From a virus, in the IMG/VR virus record IMGVR_UViG_3300006919_000111, positions 1 through 43,004 of that record: a DNA stretch of 43,004 nucleotides; one strand, written 5' to 3'. The notes under the pieces were generated by a model. That model worked only from the letters and a program-made list of their open reading frames with translations. It made no database searches and was not told the origin of the DNA. Positions 2,375 through 38,761 of the stretch are shown piece by piece. Position 1 is the first letter of the stretch, and each line of letters begins with the position of its first letter. The position numbers and the translations under genes were made by a program.

Positions 2375-2613
2375 TCGACTTCCTCTAACATGGTTTCAAG
2401 ATCAACTCCAAACTCCAGCATGAAGTCTAGAAGGTAGGTCAGGTTCAAGGCTCTCTCCCCTGACTCAATGGCACTGCACATGGCAGGTGGTTGTCCGAGT
2501 CTCCGAGAAACCTCAGCACAGCTAAGTCCTTCACTCTCTCGAATGAAGATCATCTGCCTGATGATCCTCAACTCATACATACGCTTTCTTTCAATGGGCT
2601 TTCCAGTTCGCAT
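2371..2613 (-). CDS. small XRE-type helix-turn-helix protein
   Basis: 80 aa. Residues about 15-75 fit an XRE/Cro-type helix-turn-helix: a pattern of R..EGLSCAEVSRRLGQPP, then SAIESGER, then LLDFMLEFGVDLE. This is the usual fold of DNA-binding repressors, but here it sits inside a replication operon rather than next to an integrase or divergent promoter. The start overlaps the stop of the primase-helicase (TAATG), with GAGGATGAC as ribosome binding site. It may regulate phage or host transcription, or act as a small accessory protein; the DNA target is unknown. Fold call is moderately sure, role unknown. Confidence 0.75.
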   Translation of the reverse strand: MRTGKPIERKRMYELRIIRQMIFIRESEGLSCAEVSRRLGQPPAMCSAIESGERALNLTYLLDFMLEFGVDLETMLEEVE

Positions 2614-4247
2614 TAGAAGTCATCCTCCTTAGATGATGTGGGTTGGAACTTGTGTTCCTTGTCAGGTGGTGGAGCAGCAGGGATGAAGCGCATCTTTTCC
2701 TTAACGAACTCAAGGTATGCCATGATCCCTGTCTCTCCGCTAAATCGGTTCTTGAGGCAGCGCACTGTCACAAGGTTCTTCTGAGTTGTACTTTGTTGGT
2801 CCCTCTCCAGTGCTATCACAATGTTAGACAGTGCAGCAATCTGAGTTGAACCACGGAGCAGTGACAGACTCAATCGACCTCCCTCTTCCAGTGATGTCTT
2901 GCCTCCTTCGGGCCGCCTAGCGTGACACACTGCAATCAGGGCGATGTTCAATCTACCGACAGCCTGTCGGAGCTTGGTCATCACTGCATCAATCCTTCGT
3001 CTCTCGTCTCCCTGGTCTGCCTTCTCTGAAAGCATGAGAGTGATGTGGTCCAGGAAGATGTACTTGTATCCAGCAGCAGCTAGGTAAGTGATCTTAGATA
3101 GCAGGTGTTCAGCATGGACAGAACCGAAGTGATCGTAGAACACCAGCCTCTCGTCCTCAAAGACCTCATCAAAGGCTGACTTAAAGTCTTTGTCACTGAG
3201 AGTGTTCTTCAAGTGCAGTGGTTTCATGGTGTGGATTCCCATGAATGCTAAAGCTGACTCTCGTAGAGATTCTTCCAAGGCAATGTAAGCAACCTTGTGT
3301 TGCCTACTCAAGTGGTAAGCAATCTCTCGCATCAGTGTGGACTTGCCAACACCAGTACCAGCAGTGAGCATGACCAGTTCACCTAGCCGGATGCCGTGAG
3401 TAACCTCATTGAATGCTTCCCAAGGGTATTCAACTGCATCTGCTGACGCTTCCTCAGCAGTGAGTGCATCCCAAATCAGATCAGTGCTTGCGATGTCATC
3501 AGGTCGGTGACTTCGTGCATTCCAGAATGCTGCCATGACTGCATCTGTCTTGCCCTCCATCAACATCTCATTGACATCAGCACCAGACAGGTCAGCAATG
3601 AATGCCTTGCCAGGAGTCAACAGGTCAGCACATTCCTTAGCTGCTTTGCGTCCAGGTTCGTCGTTGTCAAACATGAACACGACTTCCTCAAACGCTTCAA
3701 GGAACTCTAAGTTGTCCCTCACTGCTTTAGCAGCACCACTTGCTCCTGTTGGGATGCCGACAACAGGCCACTTGTTGTGCATGATCTGAGCCATGCTCAG
3801 TGTGTCGATCTCTCCCTCACATACCGTGACTCTCTTCCCTCCCTTGAATAGCTGCTGCCCATAGAGGCCGATGCCTTTCCATGTACCTCTGGTGGTGAAG
3901 TTCTTGTTGGCATCTCTGAGCTTCTGTCCAGCGATCTCACCACCCTTGAAGTAAGTAGCTACTTGTACCCCTTGGTACACACCGTACTTGTACCTCTTAC
4001 ATACTTCATCGTAGATGCCTCTAGCAGGGAGATCTACGACATCAATCTCATTGAGTGGGATCAGATTGCTGTTCTTGGGAACTTGAGTGTAGGCTTCGAC
4101 GGCTTGGCCGTTCGATGTCAATGCATTACATGAGAAGCAATAGGTATGGCCATCGGTGTAAAGACTGTTTGCATCAGAACTGCCGCAGGATTCACAAGGC
4201 AGATGCTTTACAAAGCTTGAGCCTTCGTGATCTTGATTATCGTGCAT
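2613..4247 (-). CDS. T7 gp4-like bifunctional primase-helicase
   Basis: Synthesises primers and unwinds DNA at the fork. From the N-terminus: a zinc-binding domain with C18, C21, C37 and C40; a TOPRIM primase core with the acidic motifs CEGEID and FDNDEPG; and a RecA-like hexameric helicase domain with Walker A GTGVGKST (K302) and Walker B IFLDHI. At 544 aa it is close to T7 gp4A (566). The ATG has GGAGGGACAACC before it and overlaps the end of the RusA-like gene by 40 bases. The zinc domain is present, so full-length primase activity is expected. Whether a shorter helicase-only form is made from an internal start, as in T7, cannot be told here. Confidence 0.96.
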   Translation of the reverse strand: MHDNQDHEGSSFVKHLPCESCGSSDANSLYTDGHTYCFSCNALTSNGQAVEAYTQVPKNSNLIPLNEIDVVDLPARGIYDEVCKRYKYGVYQGVQVATYFKGGEIAGQKLRDANKNFTTRGTWKGIGLYGQQLFKGGKRVTVCEGEIDTLSMAQIMHNKWPVVGIPTGASGAAKAVRDNLEFLEAFEEVVFMFDNDEPGRKAAKECADLLTPGKAFIADLSGADVNEMLMEGKTDAVMAAFWNARSHRPDDIASTDLIWDALTAEEASADAVEYPWEAFNEVTHGIRLGELVMLTAGTGVGKSTLMREIAYHLSRQHKVAYIALEESLRESALAFMGIHTMKPLHLKNTLSDKDFKSAFDEVFEDERLVFYDHFGSVHAEHLLSKITYLAAAGYKYIFLDHITLMLSEKADQGDERRRIDAVMTKLRQAVGRLNIALIAVCHARRPEGGKTSLEEGGRLSLSLLRGSTQIAALSNIVIALERDQQSTTQKNLVTVRCLKNRFSGETGIMAYLEFVKEKMRFIPAAPPPDKEHKFQPTSSKEDDF

Positions 4248-9699: not shown

Positions 9700-10830
9700 C
9701 TATGCGATGAACCCCTCGACCGACTTGGTTAAGAAGTTCAAAGCATTCTCTTCTGACTGGAAGTCAGGGACGAGGATTGCATTCTCACGATCCAATCCTA
9801 GCTGTTGCATTGTCGCTGCAATGTAGTCAGGTACAGCAGAGACACAGCGCATAGATCCGATGCTTGACTGCCTGTGTCTATTCTCCTGTTTGTGACCTGG
9901 ACCTTTGAGCCTGTCAGCCAACTCTGGTGGACACTCTTCAGGCAAGTGAACCGTACCGATAGCACGGTAGCCTTGTGAAGTGAATGTTTGGCCACTCGCC
10001 ATGACTGCTGCAATCAGGTCAGTGTTCAGGTCTTCGTTAGGCTCCTTCACTTTGCAGAAAGTGCCGTGGAAAGCATTGCGATTGTTCCGATTGGCGAAGC
10101 CTAGCTCTTTAGCTTGGAGTGCGCTCAACTCAGCAGCTTCCGTCACATAGACGGCATACTCACATGAGATGAGTTCAACTCGATAGCCAGCAGCTTCCAG
10201 CTTGTCCACAAGGACACATCCAACTGCACCAGACCAGAACCAGCCTTCTTCTGACCGTCCACCATTGCCACCGAAGTTGGCCACAACGGTCACAGTAGGA
10301 TCAAGCTTGCCGATCCGCCTCTTTCTGGCTTCCCATGCAGTATCACACTGTCCGCCATACAGACGGTCGTAACTCAGTTCGTCACCATCATCGAGCCACA
10401 TCCGATGTCGCTCAATGCCTGTCGGTTGCCAGTTCTCAGAGAGATCCATCAACCGTAGGTTGTACTCACGGATCTTGTCCCCAAGGATCGGGCTACCTTG
10501 CTTGAGTGCAAGTCGGCAGTCGTTCCACTGCCAATCGCTAGGGGCATCAGGCAGGACGAGAGACGGCTCTCCTCCGCCAACGATGCACCCATGCTCATAG
10601 GCTCTGGTGTTCCACTTTCCTCTCTGCTCAGCCAGCATCTTGCCAACTAGGTCGATGTCAGCGAGTGCGGCAGTGTTCATGTAGACGGCAGTAGACAGCC
10701 CGTGATTCTTCCTACGGGTTGCACCATTCCTTACATAGGAATCGCACCATATCGACCGCCATTCATACTCTCCTGTTGGATCAGCTAGTCGGCTGTCCCA
10801 TAACAGGTCAAGTTCAATCTCTTGCGTCAT
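9700..10830 (-). CDS. degenerate VWA-like protein, predicted partner of the AAA+ ATPase
   Basis: 376 aa. The middle (about residues 180-235) has a Rossmann-type pattern, VTVVANFGGNGGRS then a helix, then LEAAGYRVELI, which resembles the first strand, MIDAS loop, helix and second strand of a von Willebrand A domain. The canonical metal motif DxSxS is not present: the loop reads NFGGN instead. Phage and actinobacterial proteins of this kind commonly sit next to MoxR-type ATPases, which is also the case here. The N-terminal part is rich in Trp, Asp and Gly and not recognised. ATG at 10830 follows GGAGG with good spacing. VWA assignment is inference from pattern and context. Confidence 0.65.
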   Translation of the reverse strand: MTQEIELDLLWDSRLADPTGEYEWRSIWCDSYVRNGATRRKNHGLSTAVYMNTAALADIDLVGKMLAEQRGKWNTRAYEHGCIVGGGEPSLVLPDAPSDWQWNDCRLALKQGSPILGDKIREYNLRLMDLSENWQPTGIERHRMWLDDGDELSYDRLYGGQCDTAWEARKRRIGKLDPTVTVVANFGGNGGRSEEGWFWSGAVGCVLVDKLEAAGYRVELISCEYAVYVTEAAELSALQAKELGFANRNNRNAFHGTFCKVKEPNEDLNTDLIAAVMASGQTFTSQGYRAIGTVHLPEECPPELADRLKGPGHKQENRHRQSSIGSMRCVSAVPDYIAATMQQLGLDRENAILVPDFQSEENALNFLTKSVEGFIA

Positions 10831-10866
10831 CTTCGTTTCCTCCAGGTTACGAGTTTTGGGTTGTTA

Positions 10867-10908
10867 GCTCCCTTAGAGACTTCGCTAAAGCTATGTCTCT
10901 AAGGGAGC
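10867..10908 (-). other. 14-bp leader hairpin between ATPase and VWA-like genes
   Basis: Perfect 14-bp inverted repeat (10867-10880 with 10895-10908; arm GCTCCCTTAGAGAC) around a 14-base loop. It fills most of the gap between two genes. There is no U-run after the 3' arm in the direction of transcription, so an RNase III-type processing site or mRNA stabiliser is more likely than a terminator. Confidence 0.8.
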
Positions 10909-10919
10909 GTAGCCACTCT

Positions 10920-12467
10920 CTATGCGAGTGCGGCTGTCTTCTCTTCCCTTGGCCAGTCAATCATCAACTGCTCAACGCAGTCCTTGACCGTCCACTTCAG
11001 AGCGATTCGGAACTGGTAAGCATCTCGCAGGGACTGAGTGTCCACCACTTGACGAATGCCTTTCTCCTTCACATTTTTGCGGATGCGGATCCACTCACTT
11101 CGCAGTTCGCTATCAGGACACAATGCCTGTTCGACTGCTGGTGAGTAGTCCCATTCAATCAGGTTCATCTTGAACCGTCGAAGCGTAGCCTTGTCGAGTT
11201 GGTTTCGACCTACATACATCCGATCTCGCCCGTTGCCAGTGGTGTTTGCACCAGCGATCAGGACGAAGTTTGAGTGACGCTCAGCAAAGGGCTTTTCAAC
11301 CCTGTTCGGCACTGAGATTCGACCACCAGACACTGCGTCGTTAATCACGATCAACACATTCGGATCTGCTGCATCCATCTCATCCAACAGGAACACTCCA
11401 CCATTCTCGTAGAGACGGATGAAGTCAGACTGAGCGTATTCAAACTTGCCACCTTCTCCCGAAGGGATGAGACGGCCAAGCAACTGCCCCTCAGACATTC
11501 CCGCTGAGCATGAGATCGAAGCGTAGTCACGGTCAAGGGCTTTCGCTACTTGAGCAGCAGCATGAGTTTTACCTGAGCCTGATGGACCGACCAGGAATGC
11601 GTTTGGCATCACCTGGACTCGATTCAACAACTCAGTGAACTTCTCATGCACCAGCCCCACAGGAACTTCCGTTCCTTGGGGAGTCACGACAGTGATCTTC
11701 TTAGCTCCAGCTTCATCCAGAGCCTTTTCAACTTGCTCAGCAACAACAGCAGGCAACTTCGTTGCAACTGCCTCATCGACTGCTGAGCCTGACCACTTGT
11801 CCACCAGGATTTTGACTTGCGTCTCATCCACTCCATCCTTGGACCGATGCTTGCGGATTGCTTCGGCAACTTGCTTGCCAAACATTCCATGCTGCTGCTC
11901 AAGGATGTCCAGAGCCTGTGATGCGTCCTCATCAGCGTCCTGCTTGACAGTCGGCTTCTGAATCAGCGTCTTCAAGTCATCCATGATCGGTGCTTTGAAG
12001 TCTGCACCTTCTCCTTTGGAAATTGGCCAAGGCCAGTCACCGTAGTTGGTGATTCGACTCGCCCAAACATCTCCGCTGGAAAGACCTTGCTTGACTTCTT
12101 GGAAGTCGATGTTTCCAACATTGGTTTTCTTGACGAAGATCCCTTGATGGTTCAAGACCTTGCGAGCAAGGTACTTTTGAGTTCGGTTACTGCCAGCAAT
12201 GGCCACACGGCCACTGTCAGCATCTCCGTCCACATTGGAAACTCCAAAAGTTGGATGATTCCAAGGTGCTACTCGACTGCTGTGTTCGACGACAATCGTA
12301 GAACCGACAAAGGGCTTGCCGAAAACTGGATTGTCAGAGTGGACACTCTCAGCCATTGCAAAGTCTTGCGCTGACTTGAGATCCTTGAACTGTGCTTGCC
12401 GAGCAGGGATGAAGTACATCCTCTCGGGATTTTCATTGTCCTGCACATGGCGAAGGACTGCATACAT
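10920..12467 (-). CDS. MoxR/CobS-type AAA+ ATPase
   Basis: 515 aa. The C-terminal half is an AAA+ module: Walker A GPSGSGKTH (K300), a pore/substrate loop region SAGMSEGQLLGRLIPSGE typical of the MoxR/CobS/dynein-related clade, Walker B VFLLDEMD (D362, E363), a sensor 1 region ending in GANTTGNG, and Arg residues in the DKATLRRF segment that can serve as the arginine finger. The N-terminal 200 residues are of unknown type. MoxR ATPases work as chaperone-like remodellers with VWA proteins, and CobS inserts cobalt with the VWA protein CobT; a VWA-like gene follows directly. The ATG follows a Shine-Dalgarno sequence held in a hairpin loop. ATPase call sure, substrate unknown. Confidence 0.9.
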   Translation of the reverse strand: MYAVLRHVQDNENPERMYFIPARQAQFKDLKSAQDFAMAESVHSDNPVFGKPFVGSTIVVEHSSRVAPWNHPTFGVSNVDGDADSGRVAIAGSNRTQKYLARKVLNHQGIFVKKTNVGNIDFQEVKQGLSSGDVWASRITNYGDWPWPISKGEGADFKAPIMDDLKTLIQKPTVKQDADEDASQALDILEQQHGMFGKQVAEAIRKHRSKDGVDETQVKILVDKWSGSAVDEAVATKLPAVVAEQVEKALDEAGAKKITVVTPQGTEVPVGLVHEKFTELLNRVQVMPNAFLVGPSGSGKTHAAAQVAKALDRDYASISCSAGMSEGQLLGRLIPSGEGGKFEYAQSDFIRLYENGGVFLLDEMDAADPNVLIVINDAVSGGRISVPNRVEKPFAERHSNFVLIAGANTTGNGRDRMYVGRNQLDKATLRRFKMNLIEWDYSPAVEQALCPDSELRSEWIRIRKNVKEKGIRQVVDTQSLRDAYQFRIALKWTVKDCVEQLMIDWPREEKTAALA

Positions 12468-12469
12468 TG

Positions 12470-12486
12470 ATTCACCTCCAGTGAAT
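12470..12486 (-). promoter_or_regulatory. Shine-Dalgarno in hairpin loop (ATPase gene)
   Basis: ATTCAC-TGGAG-GTGAAT: a 6-bp stem whose five-base loop is the ribosome binding site, eight bases before the ATG at 12467. One of five leaders with the same design and different stem sequences. Confidence 0.7.
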
Positions 12487-12550
12487 GACGATTGTGGGTT
12501 TAGCCTTGAGATTCCACTGATCGGCCAACTTCAGTGGTTGATTTTGGGTT

Positions 12551-12619
12551 GTCCCTCTTAATCTATTGAAGTCGTAGACTCCTTCAATAGTTAAGAGGGA
12601 CTTACTAGCTTGGTGCTAG
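12551..12619 (-). other. tandem hairpins in the ATPase leader, one with a 20-bp stem
   Basis: The main hairpin is 12551-12601: arms begin GTCCCTCTTAA and pair over 20 bp with one bulged base, around a 10-base loop. A second small hairpin lies just upstream in the transcript at 12605-12619 (CTAGC/GCTAG, 5-base loop). No U-run follows. The long regular stem is what RNase III cuts in T7 early mRNA, so processing between genes is a reasonable inference. Confidence 0.8.
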
Positions 12620-12649
12620 CGAACTTTTCAACTCAGCGACAGACCAAGC

Positions 12650-12766
12650 TTACACTGCAATGCTCAGGATAATCAACCACCACAACAGGTAGAGACACCA
12701 CAGGTATGCGGGTTCTACATCTTGTGCCTGATCGTTTGCCCCATCATCTTCGCGGTCATTCTTCAT
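12650..12766 (-). CDS. 38-aa single-span membrane peptide
   Basis: Short gene that starts with ATG inside the last codons of the 111-aa gene upstream (overlap ATGAAGAATGA) in another frame and ends at TAA 12652-12650. The first 19 residues are hydrophilic and acidic (KNDREDDGANDQAQDVEP); residues 20-38 are one hydrophobic stretch, AYLWCLYLLWWLIILSIAV, ending at the stop. That is the look of a small tail-anchored inner-membrane protein, with N-terminus in the cytoplasm. There is no strong ribosome binding site, so translation would depend on coupling to the upstream gene. Small early membrane peptides of phages often block host functions or superinfection, but here the role is unknown. Confidence 0.6.
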   Translation of the reverse strand: MKNDREDDGANDQAQDVEPAYLWCLYLLWWLIILSIAV

Positions 12767-13091
12767 CGGAAGAATCCACATAGCACTTGGCCAACGCTCG
12801 TTGCATCTCGTCCAGTTCATGCTTGAGATGCAGACTGAACATGACCATATGCATTGCAGTCATCTTGAGTTTGTTAGGCAGAACATCAGTCTCCTGATCC
12901 GACAGGCTGTTGATGATCTCGATCAACTCCTTGAAGAGTTCAAGGCTCTTCATCATGGCTGGAATGCTGTTCAGCACCAGGACACTCACAGAGTCCGAAT
13001 CCATGTCAAGCACAAGCTTGCTGTCGGCGTGTTCCGGCGAGTGATCTCCCGCCATGTCTGGTGTGAGGATTAAGCGTAGAGTTTCGTTCAT
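12756..13091 (-). CDS. hypothetical acidic protein, 111 aa
   Basis: Helical acidic protein, unrecognised, with Leu and Met rich helices and a C-terminus DSSDEE. The ATG at 13091 follows GGAGG and is the evident start; the longer open frame to 13145 runs through the leader hairpins and has no ribosome binding site. Its 3' end overlaps the 38-aa membrane peptide gene. Confidence 0.75.
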   Translation of the reverse strand: MNETLRLILTPDMAGDHSPEHADSKLVLDMDSDSVSVLVLNSIPAMMKSLELFKELIEIINSLSDQETDVLPNKLKMTAMHMVMFSLHLKHELDEMQRALAKCYVDSSDEE

Positions 13092-13095
13092 TGTT

Positions 13096-13109
13096 GACCC
13101 TCCAGGGTC
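13096..13109 (-). promoter_or_regulatory. Shine-Dalgarno in hairpin loop (111-aa gene at 13091)
   Basis: GACC-CTGGAG-GGTC: 4-bp stem with the ribosome binding site in the loop, eight bases before the ATG at 13091. Confidence 0.6.
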
Positions 13110-13132
13110 GTGCAAGGTGTCTGCCTCATCAG

Positions 13133-13173
13133 TAGTCGGAGACAATCCCGACTAGACACTGCCGTAGCAGTGT
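13133..13173 (-). other. tandem leader hairpins with a UACG tetraloop (copy 1)
   Basis: In the transcript the first hairpin is ACACTGC-TACG-GCAGTGT (13156-13173), a 7-bp stem closed as C(UACG)G, one of the very stable UNCG tetraloops. It is followed by TAGTCGG/CCGACTA (13133-13154). The first hairpin recurs unchanged at 13583-13600. No U-run follows either. Confidence 0.75.
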
Positions 13174-13181
13174 TTCGGCTA

Positions 13182-13517
13182 TTAAGATCGGGCCACTTGA
13201 GTGAATCCGCCTTCCAGGGAGACAGAGAACCATCCCGAAGGGTCCAGTTCCTTGCCGTCCTTCGACTCAAACAGTGCAAAATCCTTTTGGAACAGTGCAA
13301 AGGGAAAGCCCAAGTGAGTCAACAGGCCATTGATTCTCTCTCGGGTAGTTGGAGTATTCCAACCAGCGCAAGAGATGAACAGTTCATTGTCTTTGCCCCA
13401 CTCGGCAATCAAGTTGCCGTGTAGCAGCATCATGCCGCCACATACTTGAGTGTTGGCCTTCTTGAACTTGCGTCCCAAGGTGAATGCTCGTGCAGCTTCT
13501 TTCGTGATCTTTCGCAT
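13182..13517 (-). CDS. phage hypothetical protein, 111 aa
   Basis: Small soluble protein. The arrangement of an N-terminal AARAFTLGRKFKKANTQV, then LLHGNLIAEWG, then AGWNTPTTRERINGLL matches a widespread family of phage hypothetical proteins of similar size, for which I know no function. The ATG at 13517 follows GGAGGAAAC; an upstream in-frame extension to 13586 overlaps leader hairpins and is rejected. Confidence 0.8.
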   Translation of the reverse strand: MRKITKEAARAFTLGRKFKKANTQVCGGMMLLHGNLIAEWGKDNELFISCAGWNTPTTRERINGLLTHLGFPFALFQKDFALFESKDGKELDPSGWFSVSLEGGFTQVARS

Positions 13518-13520
13518 CTT

Positions 13521-13537
13521 TGTTTCCTCCAGAAACA
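13521..13537 (-). promoter_or_regulatory. Shine-Dalgarno in hairpin loop (gene at 13517)
   Basis: TGTTTC-TGGAG-GAAACA: 6-bp stem, ribosome binding site in the loop, nine bases before the ATG. Near-identical to the leader at 14039-14055. Confidence 0.7.
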
Positions 13538-13560
13538 GGGTTTGAGCGAGTCTCTTCAGT

Positions 13561-13600
13561 GATGCCATGCTCAAGGCATCAGACACTGCCGTAGCAGTGT
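13561..13600 (-). other. tandem leader hairpins with a UACG tetraloop (copy 2)
   Basis: Hairpin ACACTGC-TACG-GCAGTGT at 13583-13600, identical to the copy at 13156-13173, followed in the transcript by GATGCC/GGCATC (13561-13580) with an 8-base loop. Same layout as copy 1: shared hairpin first, then a gene-specific hairpin, then the ribosome binding site hairpin. Confidence 0.75.
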
Positions 13601-13609
13601 TTCGACGGT

Positions 13610-13777
13610 TTAGAAGTTGCCACAGGCCACCATCTGCTCATAGGTCAGGATGATGTCGGCTCTGTTGAGCCAGCCTGTGTCACCTGTCGTCATGTCCACA
13701 ACATACAGGTATTCGTTCCCATCTCGGTAGACGGTCCAGGTTTCACTTCCGCCACAGGCAGGGATGTACCTATGCAT
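13610..13777 (-). CDS. hypothetical protein, 55 aa
   Basis: Small protein with a beta-rich look (ETWTVYRDGNEYLYVVDM) and two cysteines; resembles small phage proteins that carry a WxVYRDGxxYxVxDM strand pair, function unknown. I prefer the ATG at 13777 because GGAGGG lies five bases before it. It overlaps the stop of the upstream gene. A longer frame from 13801 has no ribosome binding site. Confidence 0.65.
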   Translation of the reverse strand: MHRYIPACGGSETWTVYRDGNEYLYVVDMTTGDTGWLNRADIILTYEQMVACGNF

Positions 13778-14036
13778 CGCATCCCTCCGGCACTTCGCCA
13801 TTGTGGACGAAGTTCAGACAGATACCGCAGATGTCCATCTCATCCATGACTCCATCCTTTTCGACACCTTCCTCATCATCCACTAGGTTCTCGACCGTGT
13901 AGACATCACAGGGAAGGGAATCGCATAGGTCACAGCCCATGTGAGAGAAGAAGGGATCAGTGTCGGGCATCCCAAAAGAGATAATCCTCCGACATTGAAT
14001 CTCAGTTTCAACTGTGATCAGGTTCCAATCAGACAT
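13770..14036 (-). CDS. first early gene: cysteine-rich hypothetical protein, 88 aa
   Basis: First gene after the early promoter, so it is probably among the first phage proteins made. Cysteines are grouped as CDLCDSLPC and CGICLNF, which could bind a metal, separated by an acidic stretch (DDEEGVEKDG). Not recognised. The ATG at 14036 follows GGAGGAAAC. In T7 the first early genes (0.3, 0.4 and others) disarm host defence or host functions; position alone suggests a similar role here. Confidence 0.75.
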   Translation of the reverse strand: MSDWNLITVETEIQCRRIISFGMPDTDPFFSHMGCDLCDSLPCDVYTVENLVDDEEGVEKDGVMDEMDICGICLNFVHNGEVPEGCDA

Positions 14037-14038
14037 TT

Positions 14039-14055
14039 TGTTTCCTCCAGAAACA
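14039..14055 (-). promoter_or_regulatory. Shine-Dalgarno in hairpin loop (first early gene)
   Basis: TGTTTC-TGGAG-GAAACA, with the ribosome binding site in the loop, eight bases before the ATG at 14036. A further hairpin ATCTGGC/GCCAGAT lies upstream in the transcript at 14077-14101. Confidence 0.7.
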
Positions 14056-14520
14056 GGGTTTTGGCGAGATCTTCAGATCTGGCATAGCCAAGTAGCCAGA
14101 TGAGATCCGAGGGAGCCTTGAACAGACTCGCTCGGACCTTTCACAATGATCGTATGCTTCTGATCTTTTCCCAAGTTGCCTCTTCCAGGGATTGACCTGG
14201 ACAATGAGCCGTCAACTTGAGTTTGAACCGTTCTCAGCTTGCGCTGATCTTCCGTGGAAGTCCCCTCAGGGCGGTTGAGTGTGTCGTGTTGTCAATAAGC
14301 TGATGAGCGAGTCATCCAACAGGTTCGGATCAGGAACCAGGGACAGCCAGTTTCGTCGGGATCAGCGACTCAGCAAGGCCGTCACTATCTCGCGCGTCGC
14401 GAGGCAAAACGGCACTTACGACGGCTCAGCCAAAACTACCTACGGTAAGTTCTTCCACATTTTCCTAAGCAAATCGCTATCTCGGTGCTTCCCAACTTCC
14501 TAGTTGCCGTCTTCGACGGA

Positions 14521-14745
14521 GCGAGCGCACTCTCACACGACGCTCAGGAAGCTTCGCTACGAGCGCACTGCACTCAGGCACTCGCCACACGGCTAGGCAC
14601 TTGAGCGAGCAGGAGCAGGCACTAGCGCAAGCCTGAGCGAACAGGAGCCTGAGCAGGCCCAAGAGCGAGTGCAGACAGGCTCAGGCAAAGGCACGATGGT
14701 GGATGGATGCGTGCAATCTGTGCGGATTCGTGGGCCTCAGGCACT
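14521..14745. repeat. patch of short imperfect direct repeats in the early leader
   Basis: The octamer (C/T)AGGCACT occurs at 14575, 14594, 14616 and 14738, and GAGCGAG/GAGCGAA/GAGCGCA units recur at about 14523, 14561, 14603, 14635 and 14663, mixed with GCCTGAGC. The first three octamers are spaced 19 and 22 bases. T7 carries arrays of short repeats next to its terminal repeats; this patch has a similar position. Confidence 0.6.
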
Positions 14746-14840
14746 CACTTGGACTTGCCTGTATCACTCACGGGCATGATGTGTGCGGTGATTCACGCGC
14801 ATGATGCGGGCGTACGGGGGCGTAGGTGAGTATCACTGTC

Positions 14841-14869
14841 GATATATAGGTACTTACTAACCTGGTCAA
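14841..14869 (-). promoter_or_regulatory. sigma70-type early promoter
   Basis: On the minus strand TTGACC (14864-14869), a 17-base spacer, then TATATC (14841-14846), pointing at the early genes. It starts about 80 bases after a terminator that would stop transcription coming from terminase, so this is where host RNA polymerase would begin on the incoming genome. Confidence 0.75.
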
Positions 14870-14946
14870 AAATCGGTTTTGCATATACCAGTCATCTTTC
14901 AGGTAGTCCTTCTAGGGACTGTTCTAGAAAGGTTCGGGGAGACATG

Positions 14947-14981
14947 AAAAAACAGCTACCCCTATTTCTAGGAGTAGCTGT
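14947..14981 (-). terminator. Rho-independent terminator before the early promoter
   Basis: A 13-bp stem (ACAGCTACTCCTA with its complement, one G-U pair), a GAAA tetraloop and a following run of T on the minus strand. It would isolate late transcription from the early promoter. Confidence 0.88.
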
Positions 14982-15232
14982 CTATGCATCGTTTCTGGAG
15001 GTAGAACCTGACTCTCTGAGAGAGGAGCAACTCTTAAACCCACTTATGAGTCACTCTTGGCCTGCTGCTTCCATTATTAGACAGCAGACGAATAGTTCTA
15101 GTATTTACATACTAAATATTTACTAAGAAGTATTGATAACCAATGTCTTAGCTAAAAGTCTTTTTAACAATCTCTTCTCTAATGGATCATCAAAGAATCT
15201 TCTAAAACCCTGTTAGATAGATACTAAGTAAA

Positions 15233-15265
15233 GATTGAGATATGTGTCAAGCACATATCTCAATC
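15233..15265 (-). terminator. terminator after the large terminase gene
   Basis: Perfect 14-bp stem GATTGAGATATGTG with its complement, five-base loop, then TTTACTT on the minus strand, 18 bases after the terminase stop. The U-run is short, so part of its role may be 3'-end protection. Confidence 0.75.
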
Positions 15266-15282
15266 AAACACTAGAACCACAC

Positions 15283-17001
15283 TTAGAACCATGATGGACC
15301 ATTGTTCTTTCCCAATGAGATGCGTGATTTCCGTGGGGAGGCATCCATCTCGTCATAGAAGACATCTAGCTCTTTGTTCAGAGCTTCCTGGTGTCTCTCC
15401 TCCATGACCTGCTTGGCATCAATGACCATGGTGGTCCCCCAATACTCAGCAGCCATGGCCACAGCATCCAATCGGTCATCATGTTTGACTGCACCTTTGA
15501 GACGCTGCATCCGAGTGGCCTGCCAAGTGAATCGGTAGCTCCCTTTGTTCAAGTGGTATTCGGGAGACTCGACACTCTGATGGTCATCCAAGATTGCCTG
15601 CTTAGAGACGATCAATCTGTGGTTGGTCCACACTGGTTCCAGTGCATCCAGGATCCTTCCCTCCTTGGCTTTGGTGTGTCTCACATCAGTCACAGTGACT
15701 GGATACCCATTGTCCACCAATGCCTTCTTGAGAAGCGAGCTAAAGGCTCCTCCTCCGTAGTTCTCCTCACAGATGATCTCTCGGACACCAAACTTCTTAG
15801 CAGCCTGAGCGAGCTTCCCAAGGGTGTCTGAGCTATACCCATCCATGGACCCACCCACATCAAGCAAATATAGGAATCCGCTCTTGTGTCCCATGACACA
15901 CCAGCTAGTCTCATCCTTACCCTTGCCTGAAGGGTCCACAGCCATCACTATTCCATCGTATGGGGCGTACTCCCCCAGGACTTCCATGGGTGCAAAGAAC
16001 CTGTCTCCAGGTAAACCTACCACAGGTAGATCTTTGATCTCCTGACCAGGACCAGAAGCCCAGATCACTCGACCTGGAGCTAACTCAGGGTCCAAGTCCA
16101 TGACAACCAGATCCCTGAGTTTGAGGGGATACCGATCAGCATCACTGAGGCTGGTGTCTAGTTGGAACTGAAGTGCAAACCCGGTAGGTCCATAGCTCAG
16201 TTCACGCTCCAGGAGGTCTTCTTCAGAGAAGCGTTTAGGGTCTGTCCCCATCCAGATCCTAGAGGGGTCTTCTATCTGTGCTTCAATCGAGGGAGCAAGG
16301 TTGGAGCCATACTTGACTTCCACAGTCCCTGGTCTTGGAACTCGTGCTGGCCACACTTTGAGATCCCAGCCCCTAGCTGGAAGCTTGTTGTACAGACTGG
16401 CCTCAATCTGAGGAGTCCCCAGGTAGATGATGTGGCCCCCTGGTTTGATCACCGAGTCAAACTCCTTCACCAACTCAGCAATCTTGTCTTGCTTGTGTTG
16501 AGTCTCTGAGTTCTCTGGTGTCTCAATGTCGTCAGCCACGATGATGTCAGCACGACTGCCAGTCAACTGACCAGTGATTCCCACTGACTTGACTGATGGT
16601 GAGTGGTCTGGTCCACAGAGGCTCACATCGAACGCCACATTGCTGAAGCGTTTGTCGTCCCCTGGTTCAGGGACAAGGTGTTGGAGCATGGGCCACTCCA
16701 TCATCACTCTCTTACAGAAGGTTGAGAAGGCTTGTGCGCGTTCCTTAGACGCAGACACCACCATGATCTTGAGATCAGGGTTCAGTAGGAGACACCAAAG
16801 AACATAGGCAGAAGTCTCATAGGACTTACCTGCTCCACGGAAGGCTTCAATGACTCGTCGTCTAGGACCGTGTTGCAGATACTCAGCAATCTCGTACTGA
16901 ACAGGTGTTGGCTCGGGTAGACCGAGGAACGACCACATCAGAAACAAGAAGTTGCGAAAGTCTCTAAGCTCTTCAGGAACCTCTGCGTCAGCGTGCTTCA
17001 T
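15283..17001 (-). CDS. large terminase subunit (T7 gp19-like)
   Basis: Packaging motor with ATPase and nuclease. ATPase: Walker A AFRGAGKSYET (K59) and Walker B DIIVADDIE. Nuclease: AVDPSGKG (D356), IICEENYGGG and KHDDRLDAVAMA supply the acidic metal ligands of the RNase H-like fold. 572 aa (T7 gp19 has 586). The start ATG shares its first base with the stop of the small subunit gene. It is the last gene of the late operon and is followed by a terminator. Confidence 0.96.
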   Translation of the reverse strand: MKHADAEVPEELRDFRNFLFLMWSFLGLPEPTPVQYEIAEYLQHGPRRRVIEAFRGAGKSYETSAYVLWCLLLNPDLKIMVVSASKERAQAFSTFCKRVMMEWPMLQHLVPEPGDDKRFSNVAFDVSLCGPDHSPSVKSVGITGQLTGSRADIIVADDIETPENSETQHKQDKIAELVKEFDSVIKPGGHIIYLGTPQIEASLYNKLPARGWDLKVWPARVPRPGTVEVKYGSNLAPSIEAQIEDPSRIWMGTDPKRFSEEDLLERELSYGPTGFALQFQLDTSLSDADRYPLKLRDLVVMDLDPELAPGRVIWASGPGQEIKDLPVVGLPGDRFFAPMEVLGEYAPYDGIVMAVDPSGKGKDETSWCVMGHKSGFLYLLDVGGSMDGYSSDTLGKLAQAAKKFGVREIICEENYGGGAFSSLLKKALVDNGYPVTVTDVRHTKAKEGRILDALEPVWTNHRLIVSKQAILDDHQSVESPEYHLNKGSYRFTWQATRMQRLKGAVKHDDRLDAVAMAAEYWGTTMVIDAKQVMEERHQEALNKELDVFYDEMDASPRKSRISLGKNNGPSWF

Positions 17002-17216
17002 TAGCCAAGGGCTTCCGACTGCTCAATGTTGAATGGCAGGACTTTGCCTTCGACTTTCTTCTTCAACTTCTCTAGCTGAGACTCATCTTTGATGGCCACA
17101 GTGATTCCGTTGTCTTTCAAGAACTTGATGGAGGCTAGTAGATCTCCAGTCGAACATTCGTCATCAGCCACCCTGTTGATCAGGGTCTTCGTGACTAGCT
17201 CGTGGAGGTCGTCCAT
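17001..17216 (-). CDS. small terminase subunit (T7 gp18-like)
   Basis: 71 aa, charged and helical, with LLASIKFLKDNGI and a Lys-rich C-terminal half; directly before the large subunit, where T7 has gp18 (89 aa). It would recognise phage DNA for packaging. I chose ATG 17216 (MDDLHELV) with the weak site AAGAAAAG. A longer frame up to 17330 is only the shadow of the overlapping lipoprotein gene and lacks a start signal. Call rests mainly on position, size and helical content. Confidence 0.7.
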   Translation of the reverse strand: MDDLHELVTKTLINRVADDECSTGDLLASIKFLKDNGITVAIKDESQLEKLKKKVEGKVLPFNIEQSEALG

Positions 17217-17652
17217 CTGACTTTTCTTCGTTGTCAATGGTCTGTACCTTTGATTTGAGTTTGAGGATCCACCCGAAGAACCTTCTTGGGTGGGTGATGA
17301 TGTAGATGAAGACCAACAGGCCCATCCCACCGAGAACCCAAGGCTTCGCTACTGCTTTCGCATTGTCGTTGATGAACTTCTGTACATCTGGATCCTCTGT
17401 CAACAGCGCGTAGGTCAGGGAGTCTGTGCGTTTCTCTTGGTGCTTGATCTCAAGGTTGGAGTCTGTTGCCTCCATCCAGAGCGCACCAAGCATCCCACCT
17501 ACAAGAGTCCCTACGGGACCAAGCGTAGATCCAGCCACAGCCCACATAGCAATGAAGCCTGCTTCCAGACCTTCTTCTGCAAGTTGTCGAGGCTGACCTG
17601 CTTGACACCCTCCAAGAGAGAGTGCCATGCACAGCAGGATTACACGAACCAC
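17164..17652 (-). CDS. predicted lipoprotein with C-terminal membrane span, possible spanin
   Basis: 162 aa from a GTG start. The N-terminus is a lipoprotein signal: VRVILLCMALS, then lipobox LGGC with C16 as the lipidated residue. A Gly-rich hydrophobic segment lies at 31-60 (VAGSTLGPVGTLVGGMLGALW) and a clear membrane span at 104-120, followed by a basic, then hydrophilic tail. A lipobox plus a C-terminal span is the layout of unimolecular spanins (for example T1 gp11), which fuse outer and inner membrane in the last step of lysis. The extra Gly-rich segment is unusual. It lies between other membrane proteins and the terminases, as lysis genes do in T7-like phages. Confidence 0.65.
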   Translation of the reverse strand: MVRVILLCMALSLGGCQAGQPRQLAEEGLEAGFIAMWAVAGSTLGPVGTLVGGMLGALWMEATDSNLEIKHQEKRTDSLTYALLTEDPDVQKFINDNAKAVAKPWVLGGMGLLVFIYIITHPRRFFGWILKLKSKVQTIDNEEKSDGRPPRASHEDPDQQGG

Positions 17653-17759
17653 GAGATCACGACACTCAGCAACATTCCCATGAGAACCATGAAGACATCG
17701 CGTGAGAACCTGTGCTGAGGATCAGCTAGGTGGAGTTTGAGTTTGGTGAGTGTGTTCAT
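17640..17759 (-). CDS. 39-aa single-span membrane peptide, holin-like candidate
   Basis: A short gene in another frame, starting ATG 17759 inside the end of the 101-aa gene and ending TAA 17642-17640 inside the start of the lipoprotein gene. The N-terminal half is hydrophilic and basic (NTLTKLKLHLADPQHRFSRD); residues 22-39 form one membrane span, VFMVLMGMLLSVVISWFV, ending at the stop. Overlap on both sides suggests coupled translation. Small one-span proteins in lysis cassettes are often holins or antiholins. Ribosome binding site is weak. Not proven to be expressed. Confidence 0.5.
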   Translation of the reverse strand: MNTLTKLKLHLADPQHRFSRDVFMVLMGMLLSVVISWFV

Positions 17760-18027
17760 TCAATCGAGTTTCAAGTATTTTGAGTTGGTGAGAGAGTTTC
17801 AGGACTTCGACTGTAAGGTTACCGTCTTGAGTCAGAGCGATCGTCTCCAGTTTTTCAATCCTGCCAGTAAGCCTGTTGACATCGGAGATCAATCTCTTGA
17901 TCACCCAACAACAGACAAGGATTAAGCAAGCAGTAAGACTAGAAGACACAGTAAGCCAAAAGGCTGCATCTGTATTCCCTGGTGTTTGTGCGTCAAGAAC
18001 GGACAGGAAAATGAACACCGTTACCAA
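17722..18027 (-). CDS. membrane protein with coiled coil, lysis candidate
   Basis: 101 aa. A short hydrophobic N-terminus (VTVFIFLSVLDA) is followed by a strong membrane span at 22-43 and then a long heptad-like coiled coil (about 45-93). The frame opens at a TTG that overlaps the stop of the GH10-like gene (TTGGTAA); a GTG three codons on is an alternative. No clear ribosome binding site. A span followed by a coiled coil is typical of i-spanins, and T7 has its holin at this place, so either role is possible. Confidence 0.6.
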   Translation of the reverse strand: MVTVFIFLSVLDAQTPGNTDAAFWLTVSSSLTACLILVCCWVIKRLISDVNRLTGRIEKLETIALTQDGNLTVEVLKLSHQLKILETRLNEHTHQTQTPPS

Positions 18028-19082
18028 GAGGAGTATTGAGGACCAAGAACAGAGATGTTCCCGGTAATCAACTTTCGTTGATTGTTGTCATCGAACAGTA
18101 AAGGCTGTTCAGTTGGATAGGTACTTCCGTTCTTTTCGTAGAGCCAAGAGTATTTGTCTGAGAGTCCCCAGAACCAGATGCCTTTGACACCTGCATTCTT
18201 AGCTGCACGGAAGAGACGAGAGGCTACTAAGGCAGCAGCCTTCTGTCGTTGAATGTCGGTAGTACCGTTAGGCAGAGTAGATGTCGTGAAGTCGCATTCA
18301 GTAATCAGCACTTGACCAAATACTTCATTCAATCGCTCAAACCCTTGTTGCATCCCAGCTTCAGAGTAGTTGATCAGACAGTCCATGTGACTCTGCGAGC
18401 CAATGAAGAGTCGTTCTCGTTCAATGTAGCCGTTGTTGACCAAGTAGTTAGCTAGGTCCACATATGCATCAATCTTGTCAGAGTACAACGAGTAGTCATC
18501 AATCTTGTAATCGTTCAAGCCGATCATAGCTTTCGTGTCTACGAGGGCTGCACGCTGAACATTCTGACCAATCTCTGCAAAGGTCAGGTCATCCACATCT
18601 TCAAAGGTCTTGATTGCTCCTGTACTGTTCAGGAGTTCGTTCCAGACCTGGATGTAGTCGAACCGACCACGGAAGTAGCCAACCACAGTGTCGATGTGAA
18701 CATGGTTAGCTACGATTCGTTCCCCCTGATCAACGATTGGATAGCCCTTGTTGACCGGGAAGAAGGTCGGTTTAGCCCACAGCAGTGTATGGAGCATCGT
18801 GACTGCTCTGTGCTGCTCCGCATAGGCCAGCATCGCCTCAGCAGTAGTCCAATCGTAAGTGGAGTAGTTGGGCGCACCATCAGCAAGTAGCTGATTCCAC
18901 TTCATAGCGTTGCCATCCAGGTATCCCTGGAACTTACTGAACAGTAGGTTCCTGGATTCTGAGTCTAGATCGGCATCATCTACATGGAGCATGGCTCCAA
19001 TGAACGGATCTTTGAGGGATTTAGTCCGATTCCGGCGAGTGTCTCGGAACCGGGAGAAGAGTTTACGAGCAGTCATGCACAT
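18021..19082 (-). CDS. GH10 (xylanase-type) glycoside hydrolase, probable virion depolymerase
   Basis: 353 aa. From about residue 30 the sequence follows the GH10 endo-xylanase fold: NAMKWNQLL near the start of the barrel, HTLLWAKPTFF, IDTVVGYFRGRFDYIQVWNELL with the acid/base Glu (E149), LNDYK, FIGSQSH, ITECDFTTS with the nucleophile Glu (E262), then GIWFWGLSDKYSW. The two Glu are 113 residues apart, close to the 100-110 usual in GH10. There is no signal peptide, so it is not exported by the host; its place among fibre genes suggests a tail-associated enzyme that cuts a surface polysaccharide. Substrate need not be xylan. Confidence 0.82.
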   Translation of the reverse strand: MCMTARKLFSRFRDTRRNRTKSLKDPFIGAMLHVDDADLDSESRNLLFSKFQGYLDGNAMKWNQLLADGAPNYSTYDWTTAEAMLAYAEQHRAVTMLHTLLWAKPTFFPVNKGYPIVDQGERIVANHVHIDTVVGYFRGRFDYIQVWNELLNSTGAIKTFEDVDDLTFAEIGQNVQRAALVDTKAMIGLNDYKIDDYSLYSDKIDAYVDLANYLVNNGYIERERLFIGSQSHMDCLINYSEAGMQQGFERLNEVFGQVLITECDFTTSTLPNGTTDIQRQKAAALVASRLFRAAKNAGVKGIWFWGLSDKYSWLYEKNGSTYPTEQPLLFDDNNQRKLITGNISVLGPQYSSW

Positions 19083-19083
19083 T

Positions 19084-19467
19084 CTAGGCCGATGGGACCG
19101 GGTAGCTGATGTAGATCACAACAGAGCGTGCTGAAGCATTGCCGTTGTAGAACTGCATCCGTGGAGGCATGACATTGCCTGGAACATATCCAGCGTAAGT
19201 CGTGCCGTCAGCCATCTTCAGTTGACCAGCAGTATTAGTAGCAATGAGATTCTCAAGGTCACGGGCGTTAGTGCCGTCCGTTTCCCATTGATCAGTGCCA
19301 GTGTTCCAGCTAGGCAGGAACATATCGACATCAGCACCTGAGACAGTGATGAAGACAGAGACTGCTCCGTGAGTGTTGATGATGTCTGACCATTCAGCGT
19401 TAGCAAGGTTTGAGATCGTCACTACATGAAGGTAGCGGTTGACCTCATCAATGATTTTAGTAGCCAT
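19084..19467 (-). CDS. hypothetical tail-module protein, 127 aa
   Basis: Beta-rich protein of about 127 aa: strands such as YLHVVTISNL, AVSVFITVSGADVDMFLPSW and a C-terminal SARSVVIYISYPVPS. It looks like a small structural or carbohydrate-binding beta sandwich. It lies between the two glycoside-hydrolase genes, one base or so from the next start, so it may link or support one of them on the virion. No family recognised. Confidence 0.7.
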   Translation of the reverse strand: MATKIIDEVNRYLHVVTISNLANAEWSDIINTHGAVSVFITVSGADVDMFLPSWNTGTDQWETDGTNARDLENLIATNTAGQLKMADGTTYAGYVPGNVMPPRMQFYNGNASARSVVIYISYPVPSA

Positions 19468-19474
19468 TGTTTAG

Positions 19475-21265
19475 TTAGAGTTGGAAGGAGGAGTGTTGAC
19501 CAGACACCAGCCGTGCTGCGTCTAGTAGTTTGAAGGAGCCATCGGAGTCAGCAGCAGCATCTTCAAGAGTGGTGCAAAGCGACCAGTACCCGTCAGGGTT
19601 AGAAGGCCCGGTCAAAGTAAACCACGACCATCCAGGGACTTTGCCTCCGGCTGTCGTGAAGATGCCGCACCAAGTCTCATGCGCCAATCGTAGAAGCTCT
19701 GCGAACCTGTCCGATTGGTACTGGTTGACGAACTCAAGAAGCTCTGGCGTTCCGCTGTTCCCCCCGTAACCGGCGCAGTGGTGGTTAGCCTCGTATGCAA
19801 CGATGCTTTTGTCAGGCCAGTGGACAAAGACCTGATCGGCGTTCTTTTGCCAAGTGTCTCCGATTGCGCCGTTTGTGTGGAACTGCGTAATCTCATACTC
19901 AATGGAGTCGTAGCCTTCTGTGAAGTCGGGTGACTGATCCTCTCCGTTGGTGACATTTCCTGGTCCGCCTTTGGTAGTGTTCAATGCGCCGCCAGAGATC
20001 CAGTTCACACTGCCAGTGAACCAAGAACCAAAGTAACCCGAGAACCCGAAGGTCGGGAAGAAGTCACCAGTCATGTCCGTCGAGCCAGAGTCAAACGGCT
20101 CCGACGAGTTGCACTCGTAGGTGTTTTTGTTGCGACCCGTGTAGCCAGTCTGCATACACAGGACTGGACAGAAATCCTTGCCTGCTGCATCGAAGACAGT
20201 TTCGATGATGTCCATGACTTGCTTGGCTCGGAAGCCACTCTGCCTCCACGCCGGGTAAGAGTCTCCACCGTGACGGCCATCGCCTGCCCCTGGGCTACTC
20301 TCCGTGGCTACCTCTTCGGCAAGGCCAGTCTGGTGCATGATGGCGTTGATGGCGAACCCGAAGTTCCACATCTCATTCGATAGCTCGATGATTGGTGGCC
20401 CTGTATCGAAGTTGTGGAAGGTAACGAGATCGGTTGCCCAATCCGTCACGGCAGCATCGGTGAACTCGCCGGGGACGCAGTACCAGCCCTGCACTCCACA
20501 CGCACTGACCAGTTCGCACAGCGCACGAAGAGGCATTCCACCTGTGCGGAACTCGCCTGCGCCACCGTTGTAGGGGCCGTGCGAGAATGTCGCAAAGGTG
20601 TAGGGCTTCGTCTTCCCTGCTGCGTTGTAAGTGGTATTACCAGACTTTTGGTTCGTTGCAGCCTCGTTCATGACGCGGATGTGACCCCAAGGGGCCACTG
20701 CATCAATGCGTGACTGTCGAATGAAGTTCGCTCCACCTACGCGAGTAGTTCCTGCAAGACTGGTTTCACAGATCTCAACATCACGGATCGGGTCGAGAGC
20801 ATACGCCGCTGCCCCTCCTGGACTCGCATCAATGTCCGCCTTTGAAATCTTGAAGGTGATGGTCCCCGCCATTGCGGTAATGTTGTAGTCCGTGTGCTGC
20901 GGGTTTGTGGCATCGGTTACCGTCCCCGCCGAGCCACCGTTAAAGATGATGGACGGCTTGACCCCATTACCGCCAACCCAGGAGCAGCGATAGTCCGTGT
21001 ATGGGAAGTCCCCGTCCGCTGGGCTTGTGTGGAGGACGGTCTGGATGTGGCTCGACGCTGAACCCACACCTTCAGGCCAGCCATCGTCACTGTAAGTTCC
21101 ATCGAATTTCGCCCATGTGTTGTCCACCCACCCGGGACGCGCCTTGTAGTAGATATTGTTGAATGGGCAGCCGCCCTCATAGTCCGAGACAGGCTCAAAC
21201 TGAACGCCCTCAATGGCGCAGTTTGACTTACGCGGATTCGTAACTAGGAACTCAAGGCGAGCCAT
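19475..21265 (-). CDS. second glycoside-hydrolase-like protein (TIM-barrel type, SNEMWN)
   Basis: 596 aa. About residues 180-560 read as a TIM-barrel hydrolase: IIELSNEMWNFG with a probable acid/base Glu (E298), and SIVAYEANHH with a probable nucleophile Glu (E492) at the end of a strand, as in clan GH-A enzymes and in a group of secreted proteins with the SNExWN and VAYExxxH pair. The first 170 residues are beta-rich and probably an attachment or binding domain. No signal peptide. It overlaps nothing but is packed between fibre-module genes. GC content is higher than in the structural genes to the right. Substrate unknown. Confidence 0.65.
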   Translation of the reverse strand: MARLEFLVTNPRKSNCAIEGVQFEPVSDYEGGCPFNNIYYKARPGWVDNTWAKFDGTYSDDGWPEGVGSASSHIQTVLHTSPADGDFPYTDYRCSWVGGNGVKPSIIFNGGSAGTVTDATNPQHTDYNITAMAGTITFKISKADIDASPGGAAAYALDPIRDVEICETSLAGTTRVGGANFIRQSRIDAVAPWGHIRVMNEAATNQKSGNTTYNAAGKTKPYTFATFSHGPYNGGAGEFRTGGMPLRALCELVSACGVQGWYCVPGEFTDAAVTDWATDLVTFHNFDTGPPIIELSNEMWNFGFAINAIMHQTGLAEEVATESSPGAGDGRHGGDSYPAWRQSGFRAKQVMDIIETVFDAAGKDFCPVLCMQTGYTGRNKNTYECNSSEPFDSGSTDMTGDFFPTFGFSGYFGSWFTGSVNWISGGALNTTKGGPGNVTNGEDQSPDFTEGYDSIEYEITQFHTNGAIGDTWQKNADQVFVHWPDKSIVAYEANHHCAGYGGNSGTPELLEFVNQYQSDRFAELLRLAHETWCGIFTTAGGKVPGWSWFTLTGPSNPDGYWSLCTTLEDAAADSDGSFKLLDAARLVSGQHSSFQL

Positions 21266-38606: not shown

Positions 38607-38761
38607 GTTTCTAGAACTCTCCTAGTTCAAAGGTTAATGAGGTTGGTTTTGGACCGCTCTCCTTTCGCTGTCGCGTCTAGTTGTCCCTCGTAAGGGGCCA
38701 CACCTACTGGCATGGAGTGCTGAGTGAGAAGCTAAGCTTCTTCAGTGCAAGGCTGCAAGCC
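38607..38761 (-). promoter_or_regulatory. capsid gene leader with Shine-Dalgarno in a hairpin loop
   Basis: At 38614-38628 GAACT-AGGAG-AGTTC places the ribosome binding site in a five-base loop, 12 bases before the ATG. Farther upstream in the transcript are CCCT-TACG-AGGG (38685-38696), and inverted repeats AAGGCT/AGCCTT and GAAGCT/AGCTTC just after the scaffold stop. This is one of the few gaps over 100 bases in the late region, so a phage promoter is likely here, but I cannot define its consensus. Confidence 0.6.

Follow-up and report, generated by a model that had tools for sequence, protein, structure and literature searches.

The early region and its leaders

The stretch of DNA analysed here, referred to as the window, is a 43,004-base virus record (IMGVR_UViG_3300006919_000111) that carries a T7-like gene set with almost every gene on the minus strand, and the phage is a T7-like podovirus. 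RNA polymerase (RNAP), primase-helicase, terminase and capsid were assigned in the window by PHROGs, and Pfam identified a T7-type SSB domain and a RusA domain among its proteins. Identity to the listed annotated phages reached about 43% at best for the capsid and about 30% for RNAP, and a megablast comparison of window positions 12000-20000 with annotated phages gave no match. The elements considered here are short hairpins that hold the Shine-Dalgarno (SD) sequence of early genes in their loops, together with hammerhead ribozyme motifs lying upstream of some of them. The early genes concerned are:

13770-14036, minus strand: gene A, an open reading frame of 88 amino acids with no Pfam or PHROGs match
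13182-13517, minus strand: gene B, 111 amino acids, Pfam Kyano_Gp96 family
12756-13091, minus strand: gene C, 111 amino acids, without assigned function and dissimilar to the gene B product
10920-12467, minus strand: gene D, 515 amino acids, a CobS/MoxR-like AAA ATPase
9700-10830, minus strand: gene E, the fifth early gene with an SD hairpin, here interrupted

The hairpins, with the probabilities predicted for them, are:

14039-14055, minus strand: SD hairpin A, TGTTTC-TGGAG-GAAACA, 2 nt before the ATG, predicted 0.90-0.93
13521-13537, minus strand: SD hairpin B, identical to A, 3 nt before the ATG, predicted 0.93-0.96
13096-13109, minus strand: SD hairpin C, GACCC-TGGA-GGGTC (equally GACC-CTGGAG-GGTC), predicted 0.91-0.93
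12470-12486, minus strand: SD hairpin D, ATTCAC-TGGAG-GTGAAT, predicted 0.66-0.90
10834-10851, minus strand: interrupted SD hairpin E, CGT-aa-CC-tgga-GG-aa-ACG, from folding, predicted 0.40-0.69
38614-38628, minus strand: weak SD hairpin of the capsid gene, GAACT-AGGAG-AGTTC, predicted 0.43 in a 90-nt and 0.00 in a 170-nt context
2620-2636, minus strand: SD hairpin of gene 2371-2613, TCATC-TAAGGAG-GATGA, predicted 0.79-0.84, which may be a chance occurrence

Hairpins A-D and the capsid hairpin were found exactly where the original prediction, made from the sequence alone, had placed them. Its count of four early leaders holds for A-D and overlooked the fifth, E, whereas the capsid leader has the proposed design in sequence only, its hairpin being disfavoured once the longer context is folded. 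The further claim that genes starting inside overlaps lack the hairpin was incorrect: gene 2371-2613 starts in an overlap with its SD in a loop closed by a 5-bp stem, and the primase-helicase gene 2613-4247, which also has an overlap start, has its SD in a loop with a predicted probability of 0.86.

Across the five early leaders CTGGAGG is constant while the arms of the hairpins vary. SD pairing does not require the CT of this heptamer, and it is the C of this CT that closes the stem, which fits the hairpin but would equally fit a protein that reads the loop. The stems had been described as covarying; pairing is indeed kept while sequences differ, but A and B are identical and the comparison is among leaders of different genes, so that the pattern is not phylogenetic covariation. 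The SD hairpins are low in predicted stability (-2.4 to -6.6 kcal/mol), and folding showed the gaps between the early genes to be crowded with other hairpins.

Excess of SD hairpins over chance

A hairpin was scored when GGA lay within a loop of 4-8 nt closed by at least five perfect pairs. Among gene starts with GGAG or AGGA at SD distance, 6 of 20 in the window have such a hairpin, compared with 12 of 476 GGAG/AGGA sites in the interior of the window's own genes and 43 of 1480 SD-bearing starts at other phage loci. The latter comprise 24 of 837 starts from other loci up to L125, minus six copies of the window sequence, and 19 of 643 from L126-L208 without L129; these distant T7-like phages are thus near background and show no excess. 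Fisher's test gave p = 2.4e-5 for the window, or 2.3e-4 with the A and B copies counted once. An ensemble test based on sampled predicted structures agreed, with 7 of 20 window starts against 69 of 1545 (p = 2.3e-5); dropping one positive that is a spurious start inside a long gene (29026) left 6 of 19 (p = 1.6e-4), and counting A and B once as well, the most cautious count, left 5 of 18 (p = 1.1e-3). Since the pattern was picked after being seen, these p-values are descriptive and uncorrected for that choice. When every GGA in the window is considered, 46 of 1598 lie in a 4-8 nt loop with at least five perfect pairs and 154 of 1598 are surrounded by at least four, so that a 4-bp stem is not rare.

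We conclude that the SD hairpins are real RNA elements. The selection on paired structure proposed in the original prediction gains support from this enrichment and from the closest relative described below, which contributes one contig and one strong case.

Hammerhead ribozyme motifs upstream of hairpins A-C

Three elements on the same strand, absent from the original prediction, alter the reading of the leader:

13115-13180, minus strand: type II hammerhead before gene C, Rfam RF02276, 56.3 bits, E 4.2e-9, predicted cleavage between 13155 and 13154
13550-13606, minus strand: type II hammerhead before gene B, found by descriptor, complete core with CUGAAGA, predicted cleavage between 13582 and 13581
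14069-14143, minus strand: degenerate type II hammerhead before gene A, found by relaxed descriptor, no Rfam match

The hammerhead before C was the sole match in an Rfam scan of the window, for which the curated cut-off of RF02276 is 37 bits. A descriptor of core and stems, run over 2.28 Mb of loci, returned 7 elements, compared with 0 after mononucleotide shuffling; the window accounts for two of them, those before B and C, and L129 for one, before its gene 1778. With stem II made optional, the minus strand of the window yielded exactly one extra element, before A, which consists of GAAA, an 8-bp stem III, a CUC cleavage triplet, a 7-bp stem I and CUGAAGA, with no stem II.

CUGANGA, GAAA, an NUH cleavage triplet and closed stems I and III are present in A, B, C and L129. 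The open stem II by the core has 3 bp in B and C, 5 bp in L129 and none in A. A loop I-tail pseudoknot, reported for most type II hammerheads in the available part of the source (PMC3088659), is possible with 5 bp in A, 6 bp in B and 5 bp in C but merely 3 in L129; at least 5 bp is reached by about 6% of random loop/tail pairs. Stem III is the same in B and C, whereas their stems I and pseudoknots differ yet pair, these pairs having been selected for pairing. The SD hairpin begins about 12-13 nt beyond the descriptor match in the A, B and C leaders, compared with some 26 nt in L129. By computation, the ribozyme stems of B, C and L129 are hardly altered by the SD hairpin, whereas stem I of A is lowered by it.

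Distribution among related and other phages

Near-identical contigs (99.6-99.9%) show zero differences in whichever leaders they cover and are uninformative. Single-protein scans for close relatives with terminase and RNAP recovered the near-identical strain only, or nothing, and an RNAP-pair scan of bacterial genome contigs gave merely two distant matches. L129, a contig of 17.4 kb, was the nearest relative recovered; its RNAP is 42% identical to that of the window, its CobS-like protein 70% over 290 amino acids and its primase-helicase 65% over 353 amino acids. Gene 1778 of L129, which precedes the CobS gene, has ATTTTCC-TGGA-GGAAAAT, a stem of 7 bp predicted at 0.86-0.92, and the order of hammerhead, SD hairpin and gene is that of the window leaders. 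A weak version, again on a different stem, is kept before the CobS gene itself. At the L129 homologue of E the site is a weaker AAAGG, within TAACC-AAA-GGTTA, and two further 5-6 bp scan matches in L129 (minus strand; beside a terminator-like stretch) were not counted as leaders. Loss of the pairing with TGGAG kept, the outcome that the original prediction had named as telling against it, was not seen in L129, the one usable relative.

Beyond L129, no start with at least five pairs occurred in four other T7-like genomes. No SD hairpin precedes the gene B homologues of the Vibrio phages VEN and phiVP140 and of Roseobacter phage CRP-810, and VEN gp02 has a 4-bp version. All 14 CobS-family relatives (L004-L017) were without an evident SD hairpin in folds judged by eye at script-chosen starts. 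The exact 17-mer of hairpins A and B occurs in 19 stretches of viral contigs; apart from the phage's own strain, it lies at a start codon in each of the unrelated L030 and L035; chance matches are expected in a large collection, and we do not count these as support. In the sequences compared, the SD-hairpin design is thus seen to belong to a small clade and not to T7-like phages at large.

Hammerheads above the Rfam cut-off were found elsewhere, at L104:14534-14600, L121:14524-14591 and 15127-15202, L007:4890-4953 and L218:573-644. Among the phages concerned are Pseudomonas phage GP100 and two T7-like contigs whose element lies downstream of terminase. Among terminase loci with at least 4 kb downstream, 2 of 25 have a hammerhead there (39 of 80 loci entered), and among RNAP loci with at least 4 kb upstream 1 of 21 has one, namely L129 (21 of 80 entered). 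No hammerhead was found in genomes L022-L025.

Ahead of D and E the window has long hairpins that are candidate processing sites:

12551-12601, minus strand: long hairpin before gene D, from a self-inverse match and folding, no Rfam match
10867-10908, minus strand: long hairpin before gene E, from folding, coordinates counted from the fold output

Window and L129 alike have long hairpins before the CobS-like gene (D) and before gene E (in L129 in the gaps 2195-2467 and 3773-3866), and both carry UCUACGA at the loop of the one that precedes the CobS-like gene. It is possible that they are RNase III sites. The gap before the CobS-like gene of L129 also contains, at 2195-2420, CCAGTCTTAGGACTGG twice, plus a half copy further on.

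Computed effect of the hairpin on SD accessibility

Accessibility of the SD was compared with that in the same RNA barred from forming the local hairpin. With the hairpin, opening GGAG costs 1.09 kcal/mol in A, 1.05 in B, 3.14 in C and 1.08 in D; with the hairpin forbidden the costs are 2.88, 1.83, 5.20 and 3.92 kcal/mol, respectively. These figures speak for display of the four-base core, and they do so in A-D only.

Known systems with similar parts

RiboJ, a synthetic element, resembles the phage leaders in having a hammerhead, then a short hairpin and a ribosome-binding site, and in the available parts of the sources the hairpin behind its hammerhead is suggested to help expose the ribosome-binding site (PMC6206723, PMC8794103, PMC7536230). 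RiboJ, however, uses the sTRSV hammerhead and has its ribosome-binding site behind the hairpin, whereas the phage motifs are natural, of type II and between genes, with the SD inside the loop. Leaders B and C show the order of hammerhead motif, hairpin and gene, A has it in degenerate form, and D and E lack it. By analogy, the phage module may work like RiboJ, but with its SD inside the loop it is not one.

Type II hammerheads with loop I-tail pseudoknots cluster between phage genes and flank single phage and prophage genes, and Perreault et al. (2011) proposed that they cut long phage transcripts into gene-length mRNAs, as given in the available part of their paper (PMC3088659). That text as available has zero occurrences of Shine-Dalgarno or ribosome binding, and an SD hairpin behind the ribozyme is not described in it. 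No description of an SD hairpin behind a natural hammerhead was found in the open-licence literature by titles and abstracts, and one may exist elsewhere. In T7, strong hairpins that serve as RNase III sites between the early genes separate the early messages. The leaders of B and C differ from these in having a self-cleaving ribozyme motif, and only the hairpins before D and E resemble possible RNase III substrates.

Interpretation of the leaders

We tentatively favour the reading that the SD hairpin forms the final part of an early leader that processes itself, and that it holds the ribosome site off neighbouring structure in the manner of RiboJ; to this reading we give slightly less than an even chance. 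In such a leader, a type II hammerhead (degenerate before A) would be followed by a tail of about 12-13 nt able to pair back with ribozyme loop I, then by the SD hairpin and the start codon, and the long hairpin would substitute for the ribozyme in D and E. Self-cleavage of the long early transcript ahead of B and of C would leave each upstream mRNA with the stem III hairpin at its end, while each downstream mRNA would open with a 5'-OH and the hairpin of stem I. The SD hairpin, itself weak (about -4 to -7 kcal/mol), would then keep GGAG in a loop beside the start codon, unpaired with the structured leader. The hairpins, their excess, the ribozyme motifs, the order of these motifs and the same order in L129 are features of the sequence; folding and cleavage of the leaders are predicted only, and the insulation of translation from upstream sequence is inferred.

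Several results weigh against this reading. Hammerheads B (25.5 bits) and L129 (26.0 bits) fall under the Rfam cut-off, although their cores are complete; hammerhead A is without stem II; ensemble folding, by a method that cannot represent pseudoknots, does not predict stem II; and leaders D and E are without a ribozyme. The hammerheads of L104, L121 (the second) and L007 shortly precede an SD and ATG but have no SD hairpin. The full five-base GGAGG in A-D gains nothing from the hairpin, which costs it up to 2 kcal/mol. In L129, the CobS gene, the orthologue of D, has GACC-TGGA-GGTC, a 4-bp stem predicted at only 0.06-0.17, and there the hairpin hinders GGAG opening (4.12 vs 2.68 kcal/mol); in this gene and gene 1778 it gives no or barely any help.

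A constant loop on a changing stem is also the usual appearance of a hairpin read by protein, and the hairpins could be binding or cutting sites for a factor that recognizes GGA or GGAG in a loop, either host CsrA/RsmA or a RegB-like endoribonuclease, acting in early gene shut-off. CsrA/RsmA sites resemble the phage hairpins in presenting GGA in the loop of a hairpin of a few base pairs, often at the SD, according to the available part of PMC7652899, and T4 RegB is described in that of PMC3014915 as cutting GGAG in early phage leaders; RNA structure of initiation regions can, by the same source, aid translation. The predicted folds of A, B and D show the RegB-site feature of an unpaired GGA with the fourth G constrained. 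Neither ACA nor ANGGAN, both features of CsrA sites, is present, however, the phage loop being UGGAG or UGGA with C two bases before GGA in A-E, and no CsrA, RegB or regB match was found among the 20 window proteins scanned with Pfam; we regard such a factor as unlikely. Somewhat less probable still is that the hairpin serves chiefly in mRNA protection, or is a neutral by-product of leaders built of tandem hairpins, the SD pairing having no role in initiation. The many other hairpins in the early gaps, the weakness of the SD hairpins, which a ribosome could melt, and the neutral or unfavourable effect calculated for the full GGAGG would all fit, but the hairpins are centred on the SD itself, beyond chance.

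Coincidence, in the form of a few chance inverted repeats and one duplicated leader, draws on the small number of cases (about five independent ones, with A and B copies), the post hoc pattern, the p of 1.1e-3 at its most cautious and just one strong case in L129. It appears improbable in view of two tests that agree, perfect 6-bp and 7-bp stems, and the position following a hammerhead, which recurs in L129. That the repeats are short, inverted and close to gene starts, and that the phage encodes a helix-turn-helix protein (2371-2613), might suggest DNA operators bound by a repressor; operators, however, conserve their arms, whereas here the arms vary while the spacer, which is the SD, is constant, and the distance to the start codon is near-fixed. 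This reading is highly improbable and was rejected for the contrast between arms and spacer. A spacer structure of the kind in T4 genes 25 and 38, where structure between SD and AUG shortens the spacing, was rejected as well, because the phage hairpin encloses the SD and the spacing to the start is already normal.

Other features of the window

The Kyano_Gp96-family gene (13182-13517, minus strand) lies two genes ahead of the CobS-like ATPase gene (10920-12467, minus strand), and the two families adjoin in Roseobacter phage CRP-810 too. No gene is evident in the roughly 1.1 kb that separate the terminase from the early genes (window 14144-15282). Two terminator-like hairpins (14983-14950 and 15265-15233) and one sigma-70-like site (15250-15221) lie there; promoter and terminator scans of the early region gave nothing bearing on the SD hairpins. 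A glycosyl hydrolase family 10 gene (18021-19082, minus strand; Pfam PF00331, E 3.4e-33) possibly encodes a depolymerase and is, to our knowledge, unusual for a T7-like phage.

Implications for T7-like phages

The SD-hairpin arrangement is real and clade-specific and varies known kinds of element in a new way, with a mechanism that we infer. A stronger version of the self-processed leader, in which the duplicated module of self-cleaving hammerhead, pseudoknot tail and hairpin-displayed SD is a natural counterpart of RiboJ that makes early genes self-contained, context-independent messages and replaces processing by host RNase III, is possible, though we think it somewhat unlikely. If the module works as proposed, evolution would have arrived at the expression-insulating layout of synthetic biologists, and the phage would be a source of natural parts. 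It would also show how a T7-like phage can do without host RNase III in dividing its early message. The leaders offer, besides, a Shine-Dalgarno hairpin that may favour initiation instead of impeding it, and this can be put to the test.

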